From a bacterium (GTDB lineage Bacteria > Bacteroidota > Ignavibacteria > Ignavibacteriales > Melioribacteraceae): a DNA stretch of 41,649 bases. Positions 1,005 through 15,801 of the stretch are shown here, one piece after another (position 1 is the stretch's first letter; the number at the start of each line of letters is the position of its first letter). The translations under genes were made by a program, and so were the position numbers. The notes under the pieces were generated by a model. That model searched no databases, was not told the DNA's origin, and was given only the letters and a program-made list of their open reading frames with translations. The stretch is taken from assembly GCA_027398005.1 (NCBI GenBank), contig DAHYUM010000004.1, positions 1 to 41,649 on the forward strand, written 5' to 3'.

Positions 1005-2651
1005 ATGAAACCGGCATTAAAGATTATACCATTATTATTAATCCTTTTAAGCTGTACGGGTTCGGCTGGGTTTAAAGGGCAATTATATATAAGGCTTAAT
1101 CAAATCGGTTTTACCCCCGAAGATTACAAATCGGCACTCATATTATCCAATGAAGAATTAGGCGCGGCCGGTTTCGGCATAGTTGATGCATCTACAGGCA
1201 AAAATGTATTAAAGGGGAATCTTGTACCTGCAGGTACAGGGTATGCTACATTTAATCATGCTTATAAGGCCGATTTTACGGAACTTAAAACCGGTGGAAA
1301 TTATTACTTAAGCATAAATGGCTCAAGGTCAAATCCATTCAGCATTGGCAGGGCTCTTTTTAAGCCTTTGGCCGATTCGCTTCTTGCTTTCTTCAGGGTA
1401 CAAAGGTGCGGGTATACAAATCCGGAACTGCACGGTGTATGCCATATTGCCGATGCCACTTCGGTATTTGACGGAAAGAATAATCTTAATGTTAAGATAG
1501 ACCTTACAGGGGGCTGGCACGATGCCGGTGATTATGTCAAGTTTCTTAATACAACTGCCGTTGCCACCTACACACTTTTATTCGCGTACGATTTTGACCC
1601 GGTTAAATTCGGGTTTGACGACAACAAAAATAATATACCCGATATTCTTGAAGAGGCTAAAATAGGCTTGGACTGGCTTCTGCGCTGTTATTATTCCCCC
1701 CTTAAACTTGTTACACAGGTGCAGGATTTAAGGGACCACGATGTTGGCTGGAGGATGCCCGAAAATGACAAAATGCAGTTCGACCGTCCCGCTTTTTTGG
1801 GAGGGGGTAAGAACTTAACCGGCATCTATTCTGCGGCGCTTGCACTTGCTTCAAGAATTTGGAAAGACAAAATTAAATACCCCGAATTTGCCGATAGATG
1901 CAAATCGGTTGCAGAGACCGTTTATTCGAACAGAAATAAAGTACCCGACCTTGATACAAGCGCTACAGGCAATTACCGCGATAAAAATTTTACCGGCAAG
2001 CTTGCTCTTGGCGCATACGAGCTTTATTCCCTTACAGGTAAAAAGGAATACCTTGACGATTCATTCGGATATGCTTCCAAAGCGGGTTCCGATTACTGGT
2101 GGAGCTGGGGGGATATTAATGCCCTTGTGCATTACCGGCTTGCGCATTTCGACAGAAAATATTTAAGCTACATAGAAAATAATCTTGAAAAATTTAGTTC
2201 TGTTTCTGCTCAAAACCTTTTTAATAACGGCGCAAATTCTACTTGGGGCACTAATAATACTCTTTTAGGCATTTCGCTTCAGGCAGTTTTATGGAAAAAG
2301 ATTACCGGCAGTACAAAATACGATAGGCTTGCGCAATTGCAGAGGGATTTTGTACTGGGGCGCAATCCATGGGGTGTATCTTTTATTTCGGGCTTCGGAT
2401 ACAATCCCGTTAAACATCTGCACCATCAGGTGGCTTTTTTAGACGGTGGTAAAGTTAACGGGGCATTGGCAGCAGGGCCTGCATCGAAAGAGTTTATTAC
2501 ATCGCAGAAAATTAAGTACGAAAACGGGGACCCTTACTCGTTATTTCAGACTGACAGTTTTTATTACAGGGATGACCGGATGGACTATGTAACCAACGAG
2601 CCGACCATAGTTTCGAATGCAACGGCTTTATTTGTTTTTGGGGTTTTATGA
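1005..2651 (+). CDS. Glycoside hydrolase family 9 lipoprotein (endoglucanase-like)
   Basis: Predicted cell-surface or periplasmic beta-glycanase. The N-terminus has a lipoprotein signal with lipobox LLSC (Cys17). Residues about 25-115 match the Ig-like N-terminal domain of GH9 enzymes (YIRLNQIGF), followed by an (alpha/alpha)6 catalytic domain to residue 548. The catalytic base motif GGWHDAGDY is present (D173, D176). The late motif around FVLGRNPWGVSF and HLHHQ corresponds to the substrate-binding His region. The general acid is E532 in NEPTIVSNA. All catalytic positions are therefore intact. GH9 enzymes mostly cut beta-1,4-glucans, but some act on other beta-1,4-linked sugars such as chito-oligosaccharides, so 'cellulase' is only the default call. 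The gene lies 151 bases upstream of the exopolysaccharide-type locus, which raises the possibility of polymer trimming, as BcsZ does for cellulose. Confidence 0.9.
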   Translation: MKPALKIIPLLLILLSCTGSAGFKGQLYIRLNQIGFTPEDYKSALILSNEELGAAGFGIVDASTGKNVLKGNLVPAGTGYATFNHAYKADFTELKTGGNYYLSINGSRSNPFSIGRALFKPLADSLLAFFRVQRCGYTNPELHGVCHIADATSVFDGKNNLNVKIDLTGGWHDAGDYVKFLNTTAVATYTLLFAYDFDPVKFGFDDNKNNIPDILEEAKIGLDWLLRCYYSPLKLVTQVQDLRDHDVGWRMPENDKMQFDRPAFLGGGKNLTGIYSAALALASRIWKDKIKYPEFADRCKSVAETVYSNRNKVPDLDTSATGNYRDKNFTGKLALGAYELYSLTGKKEYLDDSFGYASKAGSDYWWSWGDINALVHYRLAHFDRKYLSYIENNLEKFSSVSAQNLFNNGANSTWGTNNTLLGISLQAVLWKKITGSTKYDRLAQLQRDFVLGRNPWGVSFISGFGYNPVKHLHHQVAFLDGGKVNGALAAGPASKEFITSQKIKYENGDPYSLFQTDSFYYRDDRMDYVTNEPTIVSNATALFVFGVL

Positions 2652-2802: not shown

Positions 2803-4089
2803 ATGAGCAGTTCAATAAGATTAATTCCTTCCGGTTTCTCTTTTTTGGACCAGAACTGGGGGGGAATTTACAGAGGGGGTAGCTATCTCCTTGTGGGTCC
2901 CAGAAAATCGGGGCGTACCTTATTGGGTCTGCAGTTTGCTCTTGAATCGGCTAAATCTTCCGAAGTCTGTCTCTATTTTACTAATATGCGTCCTAAGGAT
3001 TTAATGATTCAGGCGGCTTCGCTTAATTTCGATATTCAAAGCTACATGAACCAGAACCTCATAATTGTTGTAAGGCTTGCTCCTCCGAACGATATTTATG
3101 AAATGTACAATCCCGATGACTATCTGCTTGAATACCTTAATGATATAATTACGGTAGTAAACCAGTATAACCCGAGCAGGATAATTTTTGACGAGATGAC
3201 CCCATACGTGGGGTTCAGAAACCTTGACCTACTTAAAGAGGCATTCCTGGGTACGCTTGAAACGATTGAAGAAAAAAACATAACCAGTCTTTTTGTTGTA
3301 GGCGAGCCTGCAACCCAGAAAACAAATTCGATAATTGAAATTCTTGCCAGTTATGTAACAGGCGTAATATACCTTCAGAAAACAATTAACAAATTTGAAA
3401 CCCGGTACGACGGCGGGCAGGTTACCATAACCCCCAATGTAGGGCATACCGAAGGGCAGTTTTCGGCGCGCTATAAAATTGAGCCTTTTAAAGGAGTGAC
3501 TGTAGAAACTTCTACACCGGAACCTCAGGTAAACAGGGAGGCAAAAACATCTGTTAAGGATATTTCAGCCCCCGAAGCCGAAGAGTTTTCGAACCAGCCT
3601 TTAAAGCAGATATATTCGATGCCTTCGGAACCGTATTCATTTACAAACGTTTATAATTACAGCGATTTCCTCCTGCTTCTTAATAACCAGATAGCGTTAT
3701 ATAAAAGCACGGGGCAGTCATTCAACCTGATTTCATTCAAGCTCGATCCGGCTTCGCAGATTAAAGGGCTTCTTTCAATCAATCAGCTTCAGAACGCAAT
3801 TAGGCTTTCAACTCATAAAAAAGATAAAATCTGTGTAGTAGATAATAAGGTGCTGGTTTTACTGGTAAAGGGGAATCTTAAAAGCGCAATTGATCTTATG
3901 AGCGGAGTGCAGAACAATCTTCCCAGCCACGATACGAATTATATTCAGACAGTTCTTGAATATGTTTCTATTTTTAACGTGGAAGTTGATGAAAGAATTG
4001 ATAATGCCGAAAGTATGATGGATATTATCAACTCTGCCGAAAGCTCTCAGTTCCAGTCCTATATGCCGATCAGCAAATATATCGGGTGA
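2803..4089 (+). CDS. KaiC/RecA-like ATPase-fold protein with degenerate GGDEF-like C-terminal domain
   Basis: Cytosolic protein of unknown role, first gene of the exopolysaccharide-type block. Residues 1-235 resemble a KaiC/RadA-type RecA fold: GGSYLLVGPRKSGRT gives a P-loop at 32-39, RIIFDE (D130, E131) gives Walker B, and FSARYKIEPFKGVTVE closes the domain as in KaiC-like proteins. The Walker A lysine is replaced by arginine (R38), so ATP hydrolysis may be lost or altered. After a linker of about 50 residues, residues about 290-412 have the spacing of a GGDEF domain (FLLLLNNQIALYKSTGQSFN, then DKICVVDNKVLVLLV where 'D.v.R.GGDEF.v.l' is expected) but without the GGDEF residues. I infer a regulatory or scaffold role. 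The GGDEF link is a visual match and needs a profile search. The stop overlaps the next start by one base, which suggests translational coupling. Confidence 0.7.
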   Translation: MSSSIRLIPSGFSFLDQNWGGIYRGGSYLLVGPRKSGRTLLGLQFALESAKSSEVCLYFTNMRPKDLMIQAASLNFDIQSYMNQNLIIVVRLAPPNDIYEMYNPDDYLLEYLNDIITVVNQYNPSRIIFDEMTPYVGFRNLDLLKEAFLGTLETIEEKNITSLFVVGEPATQKTNSIIEILASYVTGVIYLQKTINKFETRYDGGQVTITPNVGHTEGQFSARYKIEPFKGVTVETSTPEPQVNREAKTSVKDISAPEAEEFSNQPLKQIYSMPSEPYSFTNVYNYSDFLLLLNNQIALYKSTGQSFNLISFKLDPASQIKGLLSINQLQNAIRLSTHKKDKICVVDNKVLVLLVKGNLKSAIDLMSGVQNNLPSHDTNYIQTVLEYVSIFNVEVDERIDNAESMMDIINSAESSQFQSYMPISKYIG

Positions 4090-6974
4090 TGAATAACTCT
4101 AAATACATAATTTCCATATTGTCAATTCTATTCCTTTTCTCTTTCGGTTTCGTTAGGGCGCAGGCAAAGTACGACCTGATGAAGCGGAAAGGAATCCAAT
4201 ACTACCAGCAGAACAAGACCAACGAAGCCATTAAAGAATTTACACGTTATCTGGATGCCAAACCGCGCTCGGCAGATGTTTCCAATTACAGGGGCCTATG
4301 TTACGAAAAAAACGGAGAGTACGGTAAATCGGTTGCCGATTTTACCGATGCCGTAAATTTAGATCCGCGCAGCGAGGAATATAAATCCAATCTGGACCGT
4401 GTTACGAAAAGCTGGCAGCAGGAACTATACCTTACTATTGCCGCCCGTAAACTGGAAGTTGAAGCCGATTCGGCTAAAATTCAAGACTACCTCGATATCG
4501 GCAACTGCTACAAGGAACTTGGAGTATGGGATTATGCCGAAAAGTGGTACGATAAATATCTTGATAAAGACCCCAATGCCCCCGCAGATGTGATTATTGC
4601 CTATTCCGAAATCCTCGCCAAGTCGGGCTCCATTGCAAAGGGGGAAAAAGTTTTAGAAAAATTCAGTCAAAAATATAGAAATGACTGGCGGATACTTAGC
4701 AGGCTCGGTTATTTTGAGTTATGGCTGGGTAAATTCAAAGCGTCAGAAGATTACTTTAACGAGTCTTTAAGGCTTAAACCGGGCTTTAAGGAAGCGGCCG
4801 AGGGGCTTGACCTTGCAAAGAGCAAGGGATTTACCGATGTATTCCAGCCCCGCTCGTTCGAAAGAAATACCGTTATTGATAACTATTACGAGACTCTTAA
4901 AAATAATCCGAACGATGATAAGGCAAGGTTCGCACTTTTAGATGAATTGATTAAAACAGGAAGACTGGATGAAGCCAAACAGCAGGTGCTCTACCTTCAG
5001 CCCAACTATGCCGATAACGATAATTTTAAACAGCTTTTAGAGCGGATTTCGATTACCGAAGCCAGAATGACCGATTTAAAAAATAAAGAGTATCAAACCG
5101 AACTTACCCAGAACCCGGAAGACAGGGAAGCCGTTAAAAAACTGGCTGAGTATGATGTAAGCGTTTTCGATTTTGACCATGCAGTCTCTATTTTGAAAGA
5201 CTATACCGAAAGAGTGCCCGAAGATGACGCTATGCAGTTCTATTATGCGCAGGTTTTAACTTATGCCAAAAACCTTGACGAGGCGTTTGTGCAGGTTAAA
5301 AAGGCAATCCTTAAAAATCCGCAGGAAAAAAGATATAAATTGCTGGCCGGTCAGCTTGGCGTTTGGCTCGACAGGGATACGACTGAATCGATAGGATATC
5401 TTGAAGATATTTTGAAGGATGAACCGGATAATGTAAGCGCATTAATTGCAATGGGCACATACAGTTTTCACCGGATGGATCTTGAGAAAGCCTCCGGTTA
5501 TGCCGAAAGAGCAAAAGCAATTGAGCCTGAAAATCCTAAACTTATTCAGCTTTTTGCAATGATTGAAACGCAGAAAGAGAATGACGAAAAAGAAAAAATG
5601 TGGAAAAAGCTTGAGCAGGCGCAGGAGCTTGTTAAGCAGGATAAGCTTGAAGATGCAAAAACCCTTTACGATGAAGTTATTGCAGGCAGGCCCCAGCCGG
5701 TTGAAACACTTACTGATTATGCATCTCTTTTAATGAAAATGCATCTTTATAAAAACGCCGTTACAGTTTACGATACTCTAATGAACCGCTCCCCGTCTTC
5801 CGATTACGATAAGATGAGAGGGAAAGCATACCTTTTAAGCGGAGACAGCCTTAAGGCCATGACCGATTTTGAACGGCTTACAAAGGAAAATCCGCAGGAT
5901 AACGAAGCAAAGCTTTATCTTGCCGATTCATACGCGAAAATGGAAAAGTATGAAGACGCGCGTAAAATTTATAAATCGCTTGAACCCAACGCCCCTGCCG
6001 ATTACAATATTGAGGAGAGGATAGACAACCTGCCTCCGGAACCCGGTTCGTTCGGCAGTTTTATGGCATCATTCGTACACGATAGTTTTTCCTACCTTAA
6101 ATTTGTCCCTTCGGCGTACCTTTACACCGATGATTTGAATTACGATTTCCTATTAGGGGGTATTTATGCCGAGACCCCTTTGAATAAGGCTATTACCATT
6201 GGTGGAGAATATTCGCGCGGGAATATTTCGAGCGATACACAATCGGCCGGCCTTACGGTTATGAAAGGGAGCCTGAGCATTAAAACAAGCGACAGGACAA
6301 CGCTCGGTTTCTCATACGGAAAGATGTCGATTAAAGGATTTTCTGACCAGCCGGTAATAAACGGATATATAAAATTCGACGACAGGGAGCAGGTGAAGGC
6401 CTCGTTAAATTATGACATGAGCGACGGAGCGGCTATTTTACTTTCACCAAATCTTGTAGCCAACAGAATAAGAACCCACAGCATAAGGCTTGATGCATCA
6501 TTCAGCTACGAAGATAAACTTAAGCTTTACGGCTACTATAATCTGATTATTCCCGAAAGCGCAGAAGTAGTTTATAACAACAGGATAACAAGCCTGAAGA
6601 ATAATATAGGCAATTATTTTATGGCCCGGCTGGGTAAATCGTTCTATACAGGGGCATTTATAGGTTACGAATATTTTTACGCCGATTTTAAGAATATTTT
6701 ACAGGTATATTATACACCTAACGAATTCAGCACACACAGTCTTTGGTTCAGCTGGCAGGTAACAAGCGATAATGAATGGGAAATTCTGGTCGGGGGAAAA
6801 CTGGGCTATGCTCCGCAGGATGATTATGTAGTTAGGGAAGGCAATATTAAAGTAACTTACAGAGTATTCGGAAACTTTAGGATAAGTTTCAACGGTCTTA
6901 CAGGCAACACGGTCCGTTATAAATCCCCTTACAAATGGGGAGCTTTGAACTTAAGTGCTTTTTGGTCTTTCTGA
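4089..6974 (+). CDS. TPR protein with C-terminal outer-membrane beta-barrel (PgaA/BcsC/PelB-like exporter)
   Basis: Probable outer-membrane export channel for a polysaccharide. A signal peptide ends near residue 26 (FLFSFGFVRAQA). Residues about 27-645 are TPR repeats (for example AIKEFTRYLDAKPRS, YFELWLGKFKASEDYFNESL, DARKIYKSLEPNAP). Residues about 650-962 are alternating hydrophobic/aromatic strands ending in LSAFWSF, and a C-terminal Phe is the usual signal for outer-membrane barrel insertion. A TPR superhelix plus a barrel of about 300 residues is the architecture of PgaA, BcsC and PelB. The start is taken as ATG 4089, which overlaps the previous stop (TGATG); GTG 4086 in the same frame is an alternative. 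The GT2 synthase follows. The exported polymer is not identifiable from this gene, and sequence similarity to a specific named exporter was not tested. Confidence 0.8.
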   Translation: MNNSKYIISILSILFLFSFGFVRAQAKYDLMKRKGIQYYQQNKTNEAIKEFTRYLDAKPRSADVSNYRGLCYEKNGEYGKSVADFTDAVNLDPRSEEYKSNLDRVTKSWQQELYLTIAARKLEVEADSAKIQDYLDIGNCYKELGVWDYAEKWYDKYLDKDPNAPADVIIAYSEILAKSGSIAKGEKVLEKFSQKYRNDWRILSRLGYFELWLGKFKASEDYFNESLRLKPGFKEAAEGLDLAKSKGFTDVFQPRSFERNTVIDNYYETLKNNPNDDKARFALLDELIKTGRLDEAKQQVLYLQPNYADNDNFKQLLERISITEARMTDLKNKEYQTELTQNPEDREAVKKLAEYDVSVFDFDHAVSILKDYTERVPEDDAMQFYYAQVLTYAKNLDEAFVQVKKAILKNPQEKRYKLLAGQLGVWLDRDTTESIGYLEDILKDEPDNVSALIAMGTYSFHRMDLEKASGYAERAKAIEPENPKLIQLFAMIETQKENDEKEKMWKKLEQAQELVKQDKLEDAKTLYDEVIAGRPQPVETLTDYASLLMKMHLYKNAVTVYDTLMNRSPSSDYDKMRGKAYLLSGDSLKAMTDFERLTKENPQDNEAKLYLADSYAKMEKYEDARKIYKSLEPNAPADYNIEERIDNLPPEPGSFGSFMASFVHDSFSYLKFVPSAYLYTDDLNYDFLLGGIYAETPLNKAITIGGEYSRGNISSDTQSAGLTVMKGSLSIKTSDRTTLGFSYGKMSIKGFSDQPVINGYIKFDDREQVKASLNYDMSDGAAILLSPNLVANRIRTHSIRLDASFSYEDKLKLYGYYNLIIPESAEVVYNNRITSLKNNIGNYFMARLGKSFYTGAFIGYEYFYADFKNILQVYYTPNEFSTHSLWFSWQVTSDNEWEILVGGKLGYAPQDDYVVREGNIKVTYRVFGNFRISFNGLTGNTVRYKSPYKWGALNLSAFWSF

Positions 6975-7189: not shown

Positions 7190-8638
7190 ATGGAAACCGG
7201 TCCAAAAATAAACAGGTACCAAATTGCCCTAGATAACAGGGAAATTAAGGCGCCCCAGAGAAACGAAGAGAAGGAAAAGAAACGCTTTATCTTCGTGAGC
7301 GGCTTTTTGTCGGTACTATTTCTTTTAATAATACTTATTACGCTTCCCCTTACAGTCCTTTCGTGGAGCGGACTGGTGGTTTACTCTTCAATAGTATCCC
7401 TTGTAATTTTCCTTTTTGTGCTTCTGTTACGATATTTCTCCATTCTTGTGCTTGCCTATTTATACATTACAAAATACACCGTCGAAGAAAAAGGGGGGTA
7501 CTATCCGTTTGTTTCAATTCTGGTGCCTGTTTATAACGAAGAAAAAGTTGTCAAATCTTCTATAGAATCGCTCCTCGAAATCAATTACCCTAATTACGAA
7601 ATAATAATAATCAACGACGGTTCATCGGATAAGACGGCGGAAGTAGCCGAAACGCTTGTAGGCTACCAGAAGGGAAGGACGTCGCTTGTAAAAGTATCCC
7701 TCATAAACAAGGCAAACAGCGGAAAGGCTAAATCGCTTAACGCGGGCATACAATACTCGCAGGCTCAGTTTGTGCTTTGCATGGATGGAGACTCTCAGCT
7801 TTCTTCCAACTGCCTTATGATGGGGATGAAACATTTTACCGATCCGGCAGTGGGAGCCGTAGCAGGCAATGTAAAAGTGCAGAACAGGAACAGGATGCTT
7901 ACCGATCTTCAGGCGCTTGAATATCTTGAAGGCCTTAATATGGCGCGGAGCGCACAGGGATTTGTGAAGATGGTTAACATTATTCCGGGCCCGATGGGAA
8001 TATTCAGGAAATCGGCCTTAAGGGATGCGGGATTCTATTCGAGCGATACATTTGCCGAAGATGCCGACGTAACATTGAAAATTCTTGCCAAAGGGTGGAA
8101 GATAGAGTACGAGCCAAATGCAATTGCATATACCGAAGCCCCCGAGACAATACATCAGCTTCTTAAACAGAGATACCGCTGGACACGCGGAATTCTTCAG
8201 GCTATAAGAAAGCATAAACAGCATATATTTAATCCTACATTGAATTTTAACAACACTATAATTTTGTGGGCCATGTTCTACGAATCGCTCGTATGGCCGG
8301 CTATGAACATTTTTGTTAACCTCTTTTTCATTACGGTAGCTTTGTTTTACGAAAAATCGATATTCATCTTTTTGTGGTGGGTAGGCATTGCAATATTGGA
8401 CGTAATGGCGGCAGTTTACTGTGTAGCCGCCGAAAAAGAGGATTTCAGGCTTGTGCCCTATGCGGTAATATACAGGATGGTATTCATTCTTCTTATCGAT
8501 ATTACCAAGGCAATGGCTACGGTAGAGGAATTCCTCGGTATCCAAATGTCATGGGGCAAGCTCGAAAGAAAGGGTTTTGAATCTTCGGCAGGCGCGAAAG
8601 TGAGCCCGGCGGCGGCAGGAACCGCTCCGGTTAAATAA
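7190..8638 (+). CDS. Processive GT2 polysaccharide synthase (PgaC/BcsA-like)
   Basis: Inner-membrane glycosyltransferase that should polymerise a beta-linked polysaccharide from nucleotide sugars and thread it across the membrane. Two transmembrane helices lie at about 33-55 and 62-95, the cytosolic GT-A domain at about 105-345, and three or four further helices after about 355. All processive-synthase residues are visible: D143 (INDGSSD), D199-x-D201 (MDGDS), E290-D291 (FAEDAD) and QxxRW at 327-331 (QRYRW). There is no PilZ domain and no UDP-glucose-specific feature that I can read, so size and layout resemble PgaC/IcaA more than full-length BcsA. The Ala/Pro-rich tail (AAAGTAPVK) is probably disordered. 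Flanking genes supply an exporter barrel upstream and membrane accessory proteins downstream, supporting a synthase-dependent secretion system. The sugar product is unknown. Confidence 0.88.
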   Translation: METGPKINRYQIALDNREIKAPQRNEEKEKKRFIFVSGFLSVLFLLIILITLPLTVLSWSGLVVYSSIVSLVIFLFVLLLRYFSILVLAYLYITKYTVEEKGGYYPFVSILVPVYNEEKVVKSSIESLLEINYPNYEIIIINDGSSDKTAEVAETLVGYQKGRTSLVKVSLINKANSGKAKSLNAGIQYSQAQFVLCMDGDSQLSSNCLMMGMKHFTDPAVGAVAGNVKVQNRNRMLTDLQALEYLEGLNMARSAQGFVKMVNIIPGPMGIFRKSALRDAGFYSSDTFAEDADVTLKILAKGWKIEYEPNAIAYTEAPETIHQLLKQRYRWTRGILQAIRKHKQHIFNPTLNFNNTIILWAMFYESLVWPAMNIFVNLFFITVALFYEKSIFIFLWWVGIAILDVMAAVYCVAAEKEDFRLVPYAVIYRMVFILLIDITKAMATVEEFLGIQMSWGKLERKGFESSAGAKVSPAAAGTAPVK

Positions 8639-8659: not shown

Positions 8660-9145
8660 ATGGAATTAATACCAATCCTTTCATTAATCATTCTGGTGGC
8701 AACTATATCCACCTTTATGCTTGCGGTTGGTGCATACATATTATATAAGCTAAGGGAAAAGAAGGGGAAAGTTGCACAGGCGCCCCAGCCTGCAACAGTG
8801 CCCGCGGAACTTCTTGCCCCGGCTCCAATTTATGCCGAACAGCAGGGGGCTCAGGCAACCGGAAGAAGAACAATGGCAGAACAGCCGTTCCGCGAGGCTT
8901 CCGAATTCCAGCAGCCGGCATACGCTCCTCAGCAGGAAAGGATGCAGGCAGGACCCGAATTGAGGCCTACGTATGTATCCCAATCCCCAAGCTTTACAGA
9001 ATCGAGATATAAACGCCCTACAAAGGAAGGTTTTCCGCCGGAAGATGAAAAAGGGCAGAAGAAAAAAATGATGCGCTATACAAGCGACGGCTATGTTGAA
9101 CCGATAAAAGAAGAAAAGAAAGAGGACGGCCTTAAGTGGCGGTAA
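8660..9145 (+). CDS. Single-pass membrane protein with Pro/Gln-rich cytosolic tail
   Basis: Not a family I recognise. One transmembrane helix (about residues 4-29, IPILSLIILVATISTFML) is followed by a basic stop-transfer stretch (KLREKKGK) and about 120 residues rich in Pro, Ala, Gln and Glu, then a charged C-terminus (DEKGQKKKMMRYTSDGYVEP ... DGLKWR). The tail looks disordered and should be cytosolic. It lies 21 bases after the synthase and overlaps the next gene by 10 bases, so it is almost certainly co-expressed with both. Its place in the operon is like that of PgaD, the small membrane partner of PgaC, but PgaD has two helices and no similarity is claimed. Codon use looks like its neighbours. 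Confidence 0.75.
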   Translation: MELIPILSLIILVATISTFMLAVGAYILYKLREKKGKVAQAPQPATVPAELLAPAPIYAEQQGAQATGRRTMAEQPFREASEFQQPAYAPQQERMQAGPELRPTYVSQSPSFTESRYKRPTKEGFPPEDEKGQKKKMMRYTSDGYVEPIKEEKKEDGLKWR

Positions 9146-11043
9146 AAAAACAAAAAAGTTTTAAGGTTAATTACCTTATTATTTTGTTTACCGGCCTGTT
9201 TTTATTGGTGGGCGGGATTCTCACTTTTCTGCTTATTATTAAGAATATCTACGGCAATTACGAGCTGAATCAGATTCTCCCTTCAAAAGAAAATCTCCGT
9301 TTCCTTTCGTACGATAAAGAAAATAAGGCGGCAATACTTTATTCAAAGTATTCCGAAAATATGCTTCAGCCTGCCGGAAGCACCTGGCTTAAGGATAATA
9401 TTGACGTTTGGGAACGCTACCTTAAGAATTCAATTAAAATGCCTTACGACATTATTGAAGATTCCACTATTGAAAAGGGATTGCACATGAAATATAAGGT
9501 GCTTATCCTGCCGGGGGCAAAATCGATAAGCGATAAGGAAATAGTAGAAATAAAAAGATTCATCGAAAACGGGGGGAGCGTTTTTGTTACCGGGGGAATT
9601 GCAACCTATTCCGACGAGGGTAAATGGAGAGGGTGGAATTTCTTTACTGAAGTTTTCGGAATGAATTTTACACGCGAAATAAGATCGGAAGAGACATATA
9701 AAGTCCACACACTAAGGGGCAACCTTCCTTTAACAGGGGGAATACCTACCGGCTATTCCTTAAGAATTGCCACATGGGACAGGCCTATATACGCTGAAGT
9801 ACTGGAACCGAGGACAACACAGGCAAGTTTCTGGTACGATTTCAGGCACGAAGCCGGGCTTGTTATGGAAGAAATTAAGAAAAGCGCCGGCATTGCATAC
9901 GGCACTTACGGTAAAGGAAGATTCGTATGGTTCGGTTTCGAAATCAACTCCGTTATAGGGCCGCAGGAAGATAATATTTACTTCGAAAAACTCCTTCAGA
10001 ATTCGATGAGCTGGCTTACTTACAGTCCAACTGCATATATAAAGGACTGGCCGGCGCCCTACGATGCCGCCGCAATTGTAGTGCCTACGTTTGCCGAAGA
10101 GGAATGGAACATAAATAACATTACCGGAATTTTGAACAATCAGAGGATTAACGCCACTTACTTTGTTGCCCCCGAGAGGGCACGCAGAGACAGCGTTTAT
10201 TTGGCCTCGCTTAAAAAATACAACTCTATTGGCGAAATTATTGATGTGGGGTACATTACATCAGCCAATGATACAATCAACAAGCTTAAGAGCAAGGATG
10301 ACCAGTACAACGCATTAAAAGACGGGAATTACAACCTTTATAAAACGAATAAAATAAAGCCGAACGCTATTATGCCCCTTTTCGGCTACTACGATGAAAA
10401 CACTCTGCAGGCAATGTCCAACGAAGGAATAGAATTTTTAGTAACCGATTCGCTTACGGACCGTTCGGTGCCCCGTTTCCAGATGAGGAACGGAAAACAG
10501 ATGATGATTGTTACAAAAACCGCAAGGGACGATTACGATATTATACGGAAGAAAAAACTTACCAACCCCGAGTTCCAGCGTTATACATACGAAGAGGATG
10601 TAGACAGGCTGATTTTTGAAGGGGGGCTGATGGTATTGAAACTTCATACCGATGCCCAGATGCGTCCAGAGAATATTGGCGTGGTAAATGATATTCTGCA
10701 GTATATGCGTAACAAAAAGATGTGGATAACCGACCTTGACCAGCTGAGAACCTGGTGGAAGAAAAAAGAGGGGGTTGAAGTAAGGCAGGAAAACAGGAGC
10801 GCGCGCCGTATTGCAGTTCAGGTGAACAACCCTGCCGATAAAACTTCGGAAAAGTTTATTGTACACATTAATCTTAACAAGAGAGTTAAGAACGTGGTAA
10901 TTTCATCCGATATAATTAACACTAAAATACCGAAATTCGAACTGCTTAATAACGACCAGACAATCTACCTTTACATAGATAATATGGAGCCTAAGGAAAC
11001 GAGGTCCCTTATTATAGATTTTGATAACATCGGAAATAAATAG
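9136..11043 (+). CDS. Membrane-anchored GATase-like plus NodB-fold protein, predicted pseudo-deacetylase
   Basis: The start is GTG at 9136, inside the end of the previous gene and preceded by AGAGGA. One N-terminal transmembrane helix (about 13-35) anchors a periplasmic protein. Residues about 60-300 resemble a class I glutamine-amidotransferase-like fold (VLILPGAKSISD ... FIENGGSVFVTGG) as found beside glycan enzymes. Residues about 305-530 follow a NodB polysaccharide-deacetylase pattern: AAAIVVPTFAEEEW at the TFDD site, NATYFVAPERA for ATFF, GEIIDVGYIT for the HEIGxHTxxH site, and LKLHTD (H504) for the LHD motif. The catalytic and metal residues are missing: TFDD reads T318-F-A-E, and both histidines of the second motif are Val371 and Thr375. 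A beta-rich tail follows. In PgaB and PelA a deacetylase modifies the polymer; here the fold is probably kept for binding or for guiding the chain. Confidence 0.7.
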   Translation: MAVKKQKSFKVNYLIILFTGLFLLVGGILTFLLIIKNIYGNYELNQILPSKENLRFLSYDKENKAAILYSKYSENMLQPAGSTWLKDNIDVWERYLKNSIKMPYDIIEDSTIEKGLHMKYKVLILPGAKSISDKEIVEIKRFIENGGSVFVTGGIATYSDEGKWRGWNFFTEVFGMNFTREIRSEETYKVHTLRGNLPLTGGIPTGYSLRIATWDRPIYAEVLEPRTTQASFWYDFRHEAGLVMEEIKKSAGIAYGTYGKGRFVWFGFEINSVIGPQEDNIYFEKLLQNSMSWLTYSPTAYIKDWPAPYDAAAIVVPTFAEEEWNINNITGILNNQRINATYFVAPERARRDSVYLASLKKYNSIGEIIDVGYITSANDTINKLKSKDDQYNALKDGNYNLYKTNKIKPNAIMPLFGYYDENTLQAMSNEGIEFLVTDSLTDRSVPRFQMRNGKQMMIVTKTARDDYDIIRKKKLTNPEFQRYTYEEDVDRLIFEGGLMVLKLHTDAQMRPENIGVVNDILQYMRNKKMWITDLDQLRTWWKKKEGVEVRQENRSARRIAVQVNNPADKTSEKFIVHINLNKRVKNVVISSDIINTKIPKFELLNNDQTIYLYIDNMEPKETRSLIIDFDNIGNK

Positions 11044-11083: not shown

Positions 11084-12919
11084 ATGCCATTGAAAATTGA
11101 AAGAAAGAAAATTCGCCTTGCACTTCTCTTAATTGTAAGCGGTTTTCTGCTTATGAGAAGCGGATGCGTTGAATCGGTAACCGATACGGGGACTTCATCA
11201 AGTTCATCCCCCACAATTGAAGTCTCAAGCCCGGTAACCGGGGATACCGTTTATGTAGGCACAAACCAGATTACTTACTCGGCAACGGACCCATCGGGGC
11301 AGGGGCTATCCCAATTCGAAGTATTCATAAATGGAGTATCGGCCAACACATATTCGGTAAGCGCTACTGCAACAAGCGGCAGCAGCACCAAAGTATATCT
11401 TGACATACCGCAGACGCTGTTATATCAGAATATAAGCTATTATGTGCTTGCATACAGCAAATCGGGCAAGACAAAGGCAAGCAAAGTTCAGAATAATTTA
11501 TATGTTGTGCCCACACCCCCTAAAGCCCCGGGCAAATTGAAAATTTCCAAAGTGAATGATACCAAGTTCAACCTTACATGGATAGACAGTTCCGATAACG
11601 AAAACCGTTTTGAATTGTGGCGCAAGGACGGTACAGCCGGCACTTATAAATTAATTAAAACTTTAGGCGAAAACGTATTCTATGCCGATGACGCAGTTCC
11701 CTCGGCATATTCAATTTATTTTTATAAGGTTAGGGCGGGGCATGCAACCGGAGTTTCCGCTTTCAGCAACGAAGTTAATACCCTAATTGCCCCCTCAAAT
11801 CTTCAGGCAAGGTCAACAGCCGCCAATACGGTTGAGTTAAACTGGACCGATAATTCGGCTTTCGAAGACGGATTCAGGATTGAAAGGGCAGACGGAAGCA
11901 ACGGCGATTTTGCATGGATTGCAACTGTGCTAACCAATATTACCACCTATAAAGATGAAACGGTAATGACCGCTACGAATTACAGGTACAGGGTATCGGC
12001 ATTTACCGGAAGCGCCCCAAGCCCATATTCGAATGAAGTTCAAATTACAACTCCTACTGCCGATACTCCTCCTACTCAGCTAAATGCCGACTTCAATTAT
12101 ACAACCCGTAAAGTGGATATCACATGGAATTCGGCCAATTACAATATGACTACTTATGTAGAAAGGAAAGCAGGCTATAACGGTCCATATACCCAGGTAG
12201 CCGCGCTTAACAACATACTTTTAAGAAAATACTCCGATAGCCTTCTTACGCCTGGTGTAATGTACACCTACCGGGTAAGGGAAATGAACTACGCGGGTTT
12301 ATATACATCTTATTCAAATGAAGACACTGCTTATGTGCCTATTCTGGCTCCTCTTGCACCATCAAATCTTGAAATAGGCAAAACTACAAATCCTTTGGTA
12401 TTCACCCTTTTCTGGCAGGATAATTCGAGCGATGAACAGGGATTTAAACTTTACCGTAAAGACGGGCTTTACGGCCAGTACCAGTATGTAGATACATTCG
12501 ACCCGAATACCCACGCGGCTACCGTTTATGTGCAGAGTTCATCCACAATTTATTACTTCAAGCTCACATCGTACAAAGATAATCTGGAATCCGATTTCTC
12601 TAACGAGGTAAGCACATCCGACCTTGGAATTTGGGGACTTTCGGTGGATTATGTGACAACCAACAGTGTAAGGATAAGATGGACCGATAATTTTGCGAAC
12701 GAAGTATCTTTCAGCGTAGAGAGGAAAATTGAAGGGGGAACATATCAGGTATTGAGCAACACGGTGCCTCCGGCGGTAAATACCGGAAGCACGGTATTCT
12801 ACACCGATTCGAATAATCTGCTGCCCGGAGTTAAATATTATTACCGTGTCCGCGCTGTATTTGCGGTAGGGTTCTCAACATATTCCAATGAAATTTCGGT
12901 AACTACTAATGTTCTCTAA
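11084..12919 (+). CDS. Exported fibronectin type III repeat protein, possible lipoprotein
   Basis: A hydrophobic N-terminal segment (about 11-26) precedes Cys28 in RSGC. The -3 residue is Arg, so this is a poor lipobox and the protein may instead be anchored or cleaved. A Ser-rich linker and an Ig-like domain (about 45-140, PTIEVSSPVTGDTVYVG) are followed by about five fibronectin-III repeats, each opening like APSNLQ or PGKLKI and carrying a W-x-D-N/S motif (LTWIDSSDNE, LNWTDNSAFE, LFWQDNSSDE, IRWTDNFANE). No enzyme domain is visible. It lies 40 bases after the deacetylase-fold gene and 2 bases before the sensor gene, so it belongs to the same transcript. Such modules often bind glycans or proteins at the surface, so I infer a role in holding the secreted polymer or in adhesion. 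Confidence 0.75.
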   Translation: MPLKIERKKIRLALLLIVSGFLLMRSGCVESVTDTGTSSSSSPTIEVSSPVTGDTVYVGTNQITYSATDPSGQGLSQFEVFINGVSANTYSVSATATSGSSTKVYLDIPQTLLYQNISYYVLAYSKSGKTKASKVQNNLYVVPTPPKAPGKLKISKVNDTKFNLTWIDSSDNENRFELWRKDGTAGTYKLIKTLGENVFYADDAVPSAYSIYFYKVRAGHATGVSAFSNEVNTLIAPSNLQARSTAANTVELNWTDNSAFEDGFRIERADGSNGDFAWIATVLTNITTYKDETVMTATNYRYRVSAFTGSAPSPYSNEVQITTPTADTPPTQLNADFNYTTRKVDITWNSANYNMTTYVERKAGYNGPYTQVAALNNILLRKYSDSLLTPGVMYTYRVREMNYAGLYTSYSNEDTAYVPILAPLAPSNLEIGKTTNPLVFTLFWQDNSSDEQGFKLYRKDGLYGQYQYVDTFDPNTHAATVYVQSSSTIYYFKLTSYKDNLESDFSNEVSTSDLGIWGLSVDYVTTNSVRIRWTDNFANEVSFSVERKIEGGTYQVLSNTVPPAVNTGSTVFYTDSNNLLPGVKYYYRVRAVFAVGFSTYSNEISVTTNVL

Positions 12920-12921
12920 AA

Positions 12922-15801
12922 ATGGATAAAAAAAACATAAATATTGAGCAGGAAAACAATACCCCTAATATTGACGGAAGCAGGATAAAAGTATTTACCG
13001 CCGATATTCAGGAAATTGTAAAGGATGAGGCAATACTCGATATAATTAAAAAAATTAAATCGAGTTTCCCCTTTACATTCATCGAAAAATCGAATATTCA
13101 GCGTATTATAAACAAGCTCGATAATTTTTTCTGGATAAAGGAAGTAAACGGCAAGTATATACTTGTTAACGAAAAATTTGCCGGAGCAATTGGCGTAAGG
13201 AACAGCCAGCTCGAAAACAAGTTCGAAATAGATTTCATTCCCCCGTTCCAGCGTAATATGTTCAATATTATGAATACTTACATAATAGATACCAGCAATG
13301 CGGTAATACTTGAAGGCATTTCCACGCCGGTGTTTGCGAATTTGAGCAGAAACGAACAGATAATACAGTTTCCTCTGCTTGATGTTGACAATAAGGTAGT
13401 GGCAATAATCGGTTTATCGGCCGAAAAGGGGGAACCGGAAGAAAAAGGATCTAGCTGGAATATGCCGGTTCAGCTTGAACAATTTAAAGAGCCTGTTCTG
13501 TTTGCCGATCCGAAAGGGAACGTGCTGGATTTTACAGGAGGTTTTGCGGAAATACTGGGAATTGATAATACCTATAAAGGGAAGAAATTAGAGGAAGTAT
13601 TTGATTTAAAGTTTTTAGAGAAATTTCAAAGGTTCATTGAAAAGATAGACGAATTGGAAGAGCACCCGCTGACTCTTGAGGCGGGGAGCAGAAAAATTAA
13701 AACAAGCCTTACTTTTAAAAAGAATTTTGATGATTCGGGAGTATTGCGGATTGTTCAAATTACCTTTCCTCCAATTACAAATCAATCACAAACAGAAATT
13801 AAAAGCACTATGTACGATTTAATAATGCAAACAAGTCCCGATGCGATTTTCATTTACGATATAGACACTTTAAAGTTTCTAGAAGTAAATGACGCGGCGG
13901 TTAAAATGTACGGGTATAAGAGGAACGAGCTTTTGAATATGGATTTGACCGACCTCTATGCCCCGGAGGACATTCAGACCCTAATCGAATCGTCCGATTC
14001 AAAAAACCTGTCGGGCGCATTTACAGGTCCATGGCGCCACAAGAAAAAAGACGGCTCTTCGGTGCTGGTGGAAATTAGCAAGGCTTCGTTAGAGTATAAG
14101 GGGAAGAGGGCGCATATAAACATAGTACGCGACGTAACCGAAAAAGTTGAAAATTCCAAGAAGCTTCAGCTTCTGCAGGCCGCATTCGAAAATTCCAGCG
14201 ATATAATTCTTTTGACCGATAATGACGGCTTTATTACATATGTAAATGATGAAATTACAAAACATCTCGGCTATTCAAAGAAAGATCTTGAAAAACGGCC
14301 ATTCCTAAGCCTTGCAGTCGATTCCGAAAGGGCGAAGGTGAATAAGGAAATTTTCCATTCGGGGAACAGGAAGCCTGTTTCAATTTCACTTGAATTAAAG
14401 AATTATTCCAATGAGCCGGTGCAGACAACTGTATTTGCCAAACCGATTCTTAATTTTTCGGGGGATATAGATTCCTTTATACTTGTTATTAAGCGTGAAG
14501 GGGAAACCCCGCAGATGCGCTACGAAAATGCAGAAGGGGGGCAGGTAATCGATTCTACATTCCTTTCGAATGTTTTTCACGAAATTCTTACTCCTATAAA
14601 TGTGATATTAGGCTTTACGCAGGAGCTGTACGAAAGCATAAGTACGCCAAACAGCGAGCAGGAGGAAGTAGCAGGAATTATTAAAGAAAACCAGAAAGTG
14701 CTTATGCAGATTATGGATAATGCGGTTGAATATACCGCCATTGAGCAGAAGGCAATTCAGGTGAAAAAAGAAAATGTACGGTTTACCGATATAATTGATG
14801 AATTAAAGAATAACGTAAGAAAAACCGCTGAGGATAAGGGGCTTGAATTGGCCTACGGCAAAATATCATCCTCACTTACATTCGAGACAGACCAGCAGAG
14901 GTTCATTTCGCTTGTTACGCTTCTATTGAAATTCTCCGTTCAGATTACAAAGGAAAAGAGCCTTTATTTTTCGGCTTACGGGTATGACAATGATACATTT
15001 TTCATAGGTATAAGGGACCAGCGTTCATCGGTTTCTCCATCGTTATTGAAAGGTCTTCAGGAAATAATATCCGAAAATGAGAATGCCGTGCGCAAGCATT
15101 TCGGTTTCTCCCGTTTCTCGGTAAGGCTTCTTCAAAAGCTTATTGAACTTCTCGGCGGGAAACCGGAAGTTGTTAAAAAAGGGGGACAGCCGGTTGAATA
15201 CGGCATTGTATTCCCGATTAACCTGAGTTTGAAAGAAACTTTAATTACCCGCAAGGATGCAGAGCCGGAACCGGAAGAAATTAAACCGGCCCCTAAAAAA
15301 ACTGAAGAGAAGAAAAGAAGTAAAGCAGTGCCGGTTCAGGAAGAAGAGCCTGCAGTAGAAGAAATTGAAGAAGAGGAATTGCCCAAAAAGAAAAACGGGC
15401 ATGCAGCGGGTGAAGAGAATGGTAAATTTGACCTTAGCGGATTTTCTTGCATTTACCTGGAAGACCAGGTCGATTCGCAGATTTTATTCAAATCGCAGAT
15501 GAAAGATTTGAAGAAGATTGACTGCGCCGAAAGTTTTGAAAAGGCGCTTCCTCTGCTTAATAATAATAAATACGATTTTATTGTAATGGATATTAATCTT
15601 CAGGGGGAATATAACGGCCTCGATGCTTTAAGAATAATCCAGAAAATGCCCGCCTACCAGAAAACTCCAGTAATTGCATGTACAGCCTACCTATTGCCCG
15701 GCGCAAAGGAAAATTTTGTGGCCGCCGGTTTCAGGGATTTTATTTCGAAACCTGTTATGAGGGATAAGCTTACAGATTCGCTGAAAAAGATTTTTTCGTA
15801 A
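12922..15801 (+). CDS. Multi-PAS hybrid sensor protein with degenerate kinase ATPase domain and intact receiver
   Basis: Cytosolic signalling protein of 959 residues without clear transmembrane helices. About four PAS-like domains fill residues 55-540; the third (SPDAIFIYDIDTLKFLEVND) and fourth (NSSDIILLTDNDGFITYVND) are the clearest. A HisKA-type dimerisation helix carries H553 in FHEILTPINVI. The following HATPase-like region (about 630-775) keeps only the outline: the N-box Asn is absent near 660-672 (QQRFISLVTLLLKF), and the G1 box DxGxG reads DQRSS at 699-703. A Glu/Lys/Pro-rich linker leads to a receiver domain (about 835-958) with acidic pair ED, phospho-acceptor D890 (IVMDINLQG), Thr in CTAY and Lys in SKP, all present. 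It may be a phosphorelay intermediate fed by another kinase rather than a kinase itself. It is the last gene of the block, ahead of a strong terminator. Confidence 0.85.
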   Translation: MDKKNINIEQENNTPNIDGSRIKVFTADIQEIVKDEAILDIIKKIKSSFPFTFIEKSNIQRIINKLDNFFWIKEVNGKYILVNEKFAGAIGVRNSQLENKFEIDFIPPFQRNMFNIMNTYIIDTSNAVILEGISTPVFANLSRNEQIIQFPLLDVDNKVVAIIGLSAEKGEPEEKGSSWNMPVQLEQFKEPVLFADPKGNVLDFTGGFAEILGIDNTYKGKKLEEVFDLKFLEKFQRFIEKIDELEEHPLTLEAGSRKIKTSLTFKKNFDDSGVLRIVQITFPPITNQSQTEIKSTMYDLIMQTSPDAIFIYDIDTLKFLEVNDAAVKMYGYKRNELLNMDLTDLYAPEDIQTLIESSDSKNLSGAFTGPWRHKKKDGSSVLVEISKASLEYKGKRAHINIVRDVTEKVENSKKLQLLQAAFENSSDIILLTDNDGFITYVNDEITKHLGYSKKDLEKRPFLSLAVDSERAKVNKEIFHSGNRKPVSISLELKNYSNEPVQTTVFAKPILNFSGDIDSFILVIKREGETPQMRYENAEGGQVIDSTFLSNVFHEILTPINVILGFTQELYESISTPNSEQEEVAGIIKENQKVLMQIMDNAVEYTAIEQKAIQVKKENVRFTDIIDELKNNVRKTAEDKGLELAYGKISSSLTFETDQQRFISLVTLLLKFSVQITKEKSLYFSAYGYDNDTFFIGIRDQRSSVSPSLLKGLQEIISENENAVRKHFGFSRFSVRLLQKLIELLGGKPEVVKKGGQPVEYGIVFPINLSLKETLITRKDAEPEPEEIKPAPKKTEEKKRSKAVPVQEEEPAVEEIEEEELPKKKNGHAAGEENGKFDLSGFSCIYLEDQVDSQILFKSQMKDLKKIDCAESFEKALPLLNNNKYDFIVMDINLQGEYNGLDALRIIQKMPAYQKTPVIACTAYLLPGAKENFVAAGFRDFISKPVMRDKLTDSLKKIFS

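Follow-up and report, generated by a model that had tools for sequence, protein, structure and literature searches.

The window, which is the whole stretch of 41,649 nucleotides that was analysed, carries on its forward strand at 2803..4089 a gene for a putative KaiC-like pseudo-ATPase domain, a linker and a degenerate GGDEF domain. This layout was derived from the open reading frame, Pfam and AlphaFold2. The product is 428 amino acids long, starts at an ATG and has a frame that is open throughout. It is predicted to be cytosolic. An origin as an artefact or through a frameshift is ruled out, given the open frame and the presence of a homologue in 52 of the 58 related genomes.

The neighbouring genes are all on the + strand. 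Directly upstream is a GH9 glycoside hydrolase with a CelD_N domain (1005..2651, identified with Pfam), which holds this place in 68 of 71 loci. Downstream there is a TPR protein (4086..6974, adjoining in 75 of 77 loci), the C-terminal part of which reads like an outer-membrane barrel, a layout like that of PgaA or BcsC. It is followed by a GT2 synthase (7190..8638, 59 of 63 loci), a small protein that is a candidate membrane anchor (8660..9145, 58 of 63), a protein with a weak polysaccharide-deacetylase-like match (9136..11043, also 58 of 63), a fibronectin type III repeat protein (11084..12919) and a PAS-PAS histidine kinase with a receiver domain (12922..15801). These counts come from a sample of 80 named loci, mostly Ignavibacteria.

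The conserved order is GH9, KaiC-like, TPR-barrel, GT2, small membrane protein and deacetylase-like protein. In the window, the start of the TPR gene shares 4 bases with the end of the KaiC-like gene, and in 76 of 78 loci these two overlap or are at most 20 bases apart. Among distant homologues, at about 25% identity, the KaiC-like, TPR and GT2 genes are kept in most loci with enough DNA; no GH9 gene was found upstream at these distant-clade loci. The preliminary description had the KaiC-like gene heading a polysaccharide locus. The polysaccharide locus stands, but because of the GH9 gene upstream on the same strand, it may begin before the KaiC-like gene. Contigs titled Tenericutes bacterium MAG22 (L088 and L089) hold the same Ignavibacteria-like locus; that genome is probably mislabelled or mis-binned.

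The nearest model for the synthase is PgaC/IcaA. Against the PgaC model it scores 219.4 bits, below the cut-off of 422.3. Its motifs DGDS, EDAD and QRYRW are those of a processive synthase. The GH9 enzyme could trim the exported polymer, by analogy with what BcsZ does for cellulose. In the small protein, which is recognisable at distant loci too, a variable linker joins a near-invariant hydrophobic segment at the N-terminus to a conserved C-terminal Y-T-x-x-G-Y plus W160. Judged by these features the protein resembles a tether that carries a docking peptide, and one guess, modelled on BcsF and BcsE, is that it might bind the KaiC-like protein (PMC7439463).

The N-terminal KaiC-like domain comprises residues 1-235. 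Within it, the Pfam family PF06745 (KaiC) spans residues 9-197 with an E-value of 8.5e-23, and its 81.4 bits are above the gathering cut-off of 26.6. Solved KaiC chains are also matched, with E-values down to 7.3e-17. The full-length AlphaFold2 model has a pLDDT of 89.7, and the matches that Foldseek lists for it are KaiC or proteins like it, ArlH among them. In the predicted structures, the protein is an N-terminal KaiC fold and a C-terminal GGDEF fold. Between these is a disordered linker without a REC domain (residues 247-279, 3541..3639, + strand), with a pLDDT below 50 in the model.

In the translation, the P-loop reads GPRKSGRT (G32-PRKSG-R38-T39, 2896..2919, + strand), with R38 encoded by CGT at 2914-2916. 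The preliminary description had remarked on this arginine in place of the Walker A lysine and on the remaining Walker B acids D130/E131, and both observations are borne out. Of 105 homologues across the family, 92 have Arg at position 38 and the other 13 have Lys; no other residue occurs there, which leaves lysine in the minority. All of the 30 closest orthologues have Arg. The Walker B strand (residues 126-131, 3178..3195, + strand, again read from the translation) has DE in 87 of the 105.

Given that position 38 only takes Arg or Lys, and that G32 and G37 are near-invariant in the same alignment, the loop seems to be still selected to hold phosphate. T39 is also retained within the window's order. 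A quick tree, several branches of which are long, has about ten changes between Arg and Lys, so what matters may not be the Arg as such. The same tree has Arg on both sides of the family's deepest split. In the distant clade, Gly or Asp often stands in place of Thr39, and Asn in place of Asp130. For this reason nucleotide binding may not extend to the whole family.

By alignment to solved KaiC, N61-M62 (2983..2988, + strand) are at the site of two glutamates, KaiC's catalytic pair. This EE pair is present in 0 of the 105 homologues, and that includes all 13 with Lys at position 38. A catalytically active KaiC-like ATPase has Lys and paired Glu where this protein has R38 and N61-M62, and ATP turnover by the domain has probably been lost. 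In the RecA of B. subtilis, the K70R change loses the ATPase while some ATP binding remains (PMC9769622). A natural and conserved Lys-to-Arg P-loop within the KaiC family is now available for study.

Some loci (L102, L111, L114, L115, L117 and L123) have tandem copies, in which a short KaiC-only paralogue is upstream of the full-length gene. A rule of one Lys plus one Arg for such tandem P-loops fits L102, L111/L043, L114 and L123, but was rejected, as both copies have Arg in L115 and L117.

The C-terminal domain has a degenerate GGDEF fold (residues 283-414, 3649..4044, + strand). Residues 268-428 were modelled by AlphaFold2 with 76 sequences, at a pLDDT of 89.8, and the best 50 matches listed by Foldseek against the PDB are all GGDEF domains. 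The top match is 3ign (E 1.3e-6, TM 0.65), and PelD (4dmz) is at rank 49 of those listed. By sequence alone, the domain has no match to a GGDEF family at E<=1. Some homologues do weakly match GGDEF_2 (best E 1.5e-4), PelD_GGDEF (2.5e-3) and GGDEF (0.026). A sequence profile against the PDB gave only weak or implausible matches, namely a designed protein and adaptins, and GGDEF proteins came up no better than E about 0.8; for this reason the domain is assigned to GGDEF by its structure. This assignment agrees with the earlier idea of a GGDEF-like C-terminus without the motif, and with the likeness to the degenerate GGDEF of PelD.

The GG[DE]EF motif of an active diguanylate cyclase is missing. 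According to the alignment and the model, the beta-hairpin where it would stand reads DNKVL (3841..3855, + strand). Homologue alignments place H338-K-K-D341 (3814..3825, + strand) where an RxxD I-site would be, which means that the Arg is absent and the Asp kept. A local hhalign match, weak and not significant, puts this stretch in register with R415-T-G-D418 of BcsE. Almost all of the window's order lacks the I-site Arg, and many of the proteins in the distant clade do have RxxD. At or beside this position, D341, K342 and K339/K340 are near-invariant.

A survey of c-di-GMP machinery covered the PilZ, EAL and GGDEF families; other enzymes and receptors, for example HD-GYP, lie outside its scope. 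The window's genome, which is 88% complete, has one GGDEF-family gene and no PilZ. In the 58 related genomes, PilZ and EAL are both found 0 times. GGDEF-family matches are present in 57 of these 58 relatives, as one shared gene each, and none of the 57 copies read has an intact motif. GGDEF and EAL are both absent from 11 of 12 genomes of the distant clade. Ignavibacteria with the conserved operon appear unable to make c-di-GMP.

The shared GGDEF-family protein (L127 100-1983, G000:C222) is about 630 amino acids long, has a GAF-like N-terminal part and, apart from the window protein, is the sole member of the GGDEF family found in the window's genome. It is a second motif-less GGDEF fold, kept by selection across the order. 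The sole intact-looking GGDEF motif among the 58 relatives is RYAGDEF in a partial frame (L192, G007:C247). This AGDEF fragment may be contamination, or it may be real.

Because the I-site Arg is missing and the genomes have no recognisable c-di-GMP machinery, c-di-GMP sensing by the window protein is unlikely, though possible. On this point the preliminary description, which had suggested such a sensor, does not hold up. The alternative that it offered, nucleotide sensing, may hold. Its more general reading of a sensor or scaffold rather than an enzyme is supported by the absence of EE and of the GGDEF motif, and by the conserved polysaccharide operon.

The function is read from anatomy and synteny. 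With middling confidence, the protein is taken to be a regulator or assembly scaffold of an exopolysaccharide machine, in the form of a non-hydrolysing KaiC-like oligomer that probably holds a nucleotide and has a docking domain derived from GGDEF. Its part in secretion is probably that of a regulator or scaffold that does not sense c-di-GMP.

As a mechanism, the cytosolic KaiC-like protein would serve a synthase-dependent exopolysaccharide machine, the synthase being PgaC-like. Like other KaiC-like proteins, it most likely forms oligomers through its KaiC-like domain. The P-loop Arg would grip a nucleotide, which would be held without turnover because the paired catalytic glutamates are gone. 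The GGDEF fold may persist because it docks to a partner or binds some ligand that is not c-di-GMP. Candidate partners are the synthase and the small membrane protein, through its conserved tail, and the KaiC-like protein would assemble or gate the synthase. The basis for this role consists of conserved residues, predicted folds and operon conservation, from which we infer oligomerisation, nucleotide holding, the partner and the effect on the synthase.

A wider statement is more tentative. It is that a ring of KaiC-derived pseudo-ATPases, with an Arg-held nucleotide and a GGDEF fold that has outlived c-di-GMP by taking on another ligand or partner, might control polysaccharide secretion in Ignavibacteria and their distant relatives. 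The protein is a candidate regulator for a polysaccharide system of Ignavibacteria that is as yet uncharacterised.

There are other ways to read these data. The protein could be purely a scaffold, with both domains dead and no nucleotide involved, which only gathers the parts of the synthase. This has been proposed for the N-terminal domain of BcsE, which drives oligomerisation though it is thought incapable of binding ATP (PMC7439463). The absence of EE throughout and the frequent changes at Thr39 and Asp130 in the distant clade also fit, but the strict Lys/Arg at position 38, with G32, G37 and T39 kept in the window's order, points to a retained phosphate-binding loop. Such a scaffold is unlikely, while still carrying real weight.

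A sensor role outside c-di-GMP, in which a different nucleotide or small signal would bind to the GGDEF-like domain, is quite improbable. The near-invariant D341, K342 and K339/K340 would suit such a ligand, as would lineages that have no recognisable c-di-GMP enzymes, but these same residues may equally form a protein docking face.

A c-di-GMP sensor like PelD or BcsE, in which I-site binding switches the synthase on, is very improbable. The GGDEF fold with PelD among its matches, the polysaccharide locus and the RxxD of many distant-clade members speak for it; against these stand the His in place of the I-site Arg, which is also non-Arg in most of the order, and the genomes, where PilZ, EAL and intact motifs are absent save for the one AGDEF fragment. 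Finally, an active ATPase or clock-type KaiC that powers secretion by ATP turnover is scarcely credible, since for all the strong KaiC domain match, the kept Walker B acids and the 13 homologues with Lys, the Walker A residue is mostly Arg, no homologue has the paired glutamates, and longer KaiC proteins with GKT and EE exist separately in related genomes.

Of the known systems, KaiC of the cyanobacterial clock is related by fold and by sequence homology. The window protein has only one KaiC domain, with Arg in its P-loop and without the catalytic EE. The archaellum protein ArlH/FlaH is likewise a single KaiC-like domain, and 4yds matches with a TM of 0.85 on the ArlH length. ArlH binds ATP without hydrolysing it and controls a motor (PMC8978795). 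To be a non-hydrolysing, ATP-binding regulator of a secretion-type machine is known for ArlH, and proposed for the window protein. ArlH lacks a GGDEF-like domain and a polysaccharide operon, and against the NCBIfam ArlH model the window protein reaches 18.5 bits, below the cut-off of 215.

The Pga system (PgaABCD, which makes PNAG) similarly has a TPR-barrel exporter, a PgaC-like GT2, a small membrane protein and a deacetylase-like protein in one operon. It has no KaiC/GGDEF-like subunit, and the operon in the window adds the GH9 gene. PelD, of the Pel polysaccharide system in Pseudomonas, is also a degenerate GGDEF fold in a polysaccharide operon, and a structural match. PelD itself binds c-di-GMP and also contains a GAF domain along with membrane segments. 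Here the KaiC-like domain (residues 1-235) replaces both the GAF domain and the membrane segments, and the I-site Arg is missing.

A look at the literature on c-di-GMP in Ignavibacteria, or on KaiC-GGDEF proteins of polysaccharide systems, returned only BcsE as relevant. In the BcsE of E. coli, REC* and GGDEF* follow a RecA-like N-terminal domain whose Walker A is divergent, and the GGDEF* binds both c-di-GMP and BcsQ (PMC7439463). The window protein shares with it a RecA/KaiC-like N-terminus with an altered Walker A, a C-terminal degenerate GGDEF, the predicted cytosolic location, and a gene encoded with a synthase-dependent polysaccharide system. It differs in having a disordered linker where BcsE has REC*, in lacking the I-site Arg, in a P-loop that is kept with Arg and not lost, in an operon with PgaC-like and not cellulose synthase genes, and in a lineage without recognisable c-di-GMP enzymes. 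An hhalign comparison gave a probability of 0.4%, a weak test as the target was a single BcsE sequence.

Because it has neither REC* nor the I-site Arg, keeps its phosphate-binding loop and had no detectable sequence relation in that weak test, the window protein is BcsE-like in design, and is not called a BcsE. BcsE and PelD are regarded as receptors of c-di-GMP. In the lineages studied here, a similar design has been kept without a recognisable working c-di-GMP system, and the window protein could show what degenerate GGDEF domains do in secretion machines apart from c-di-GMP.
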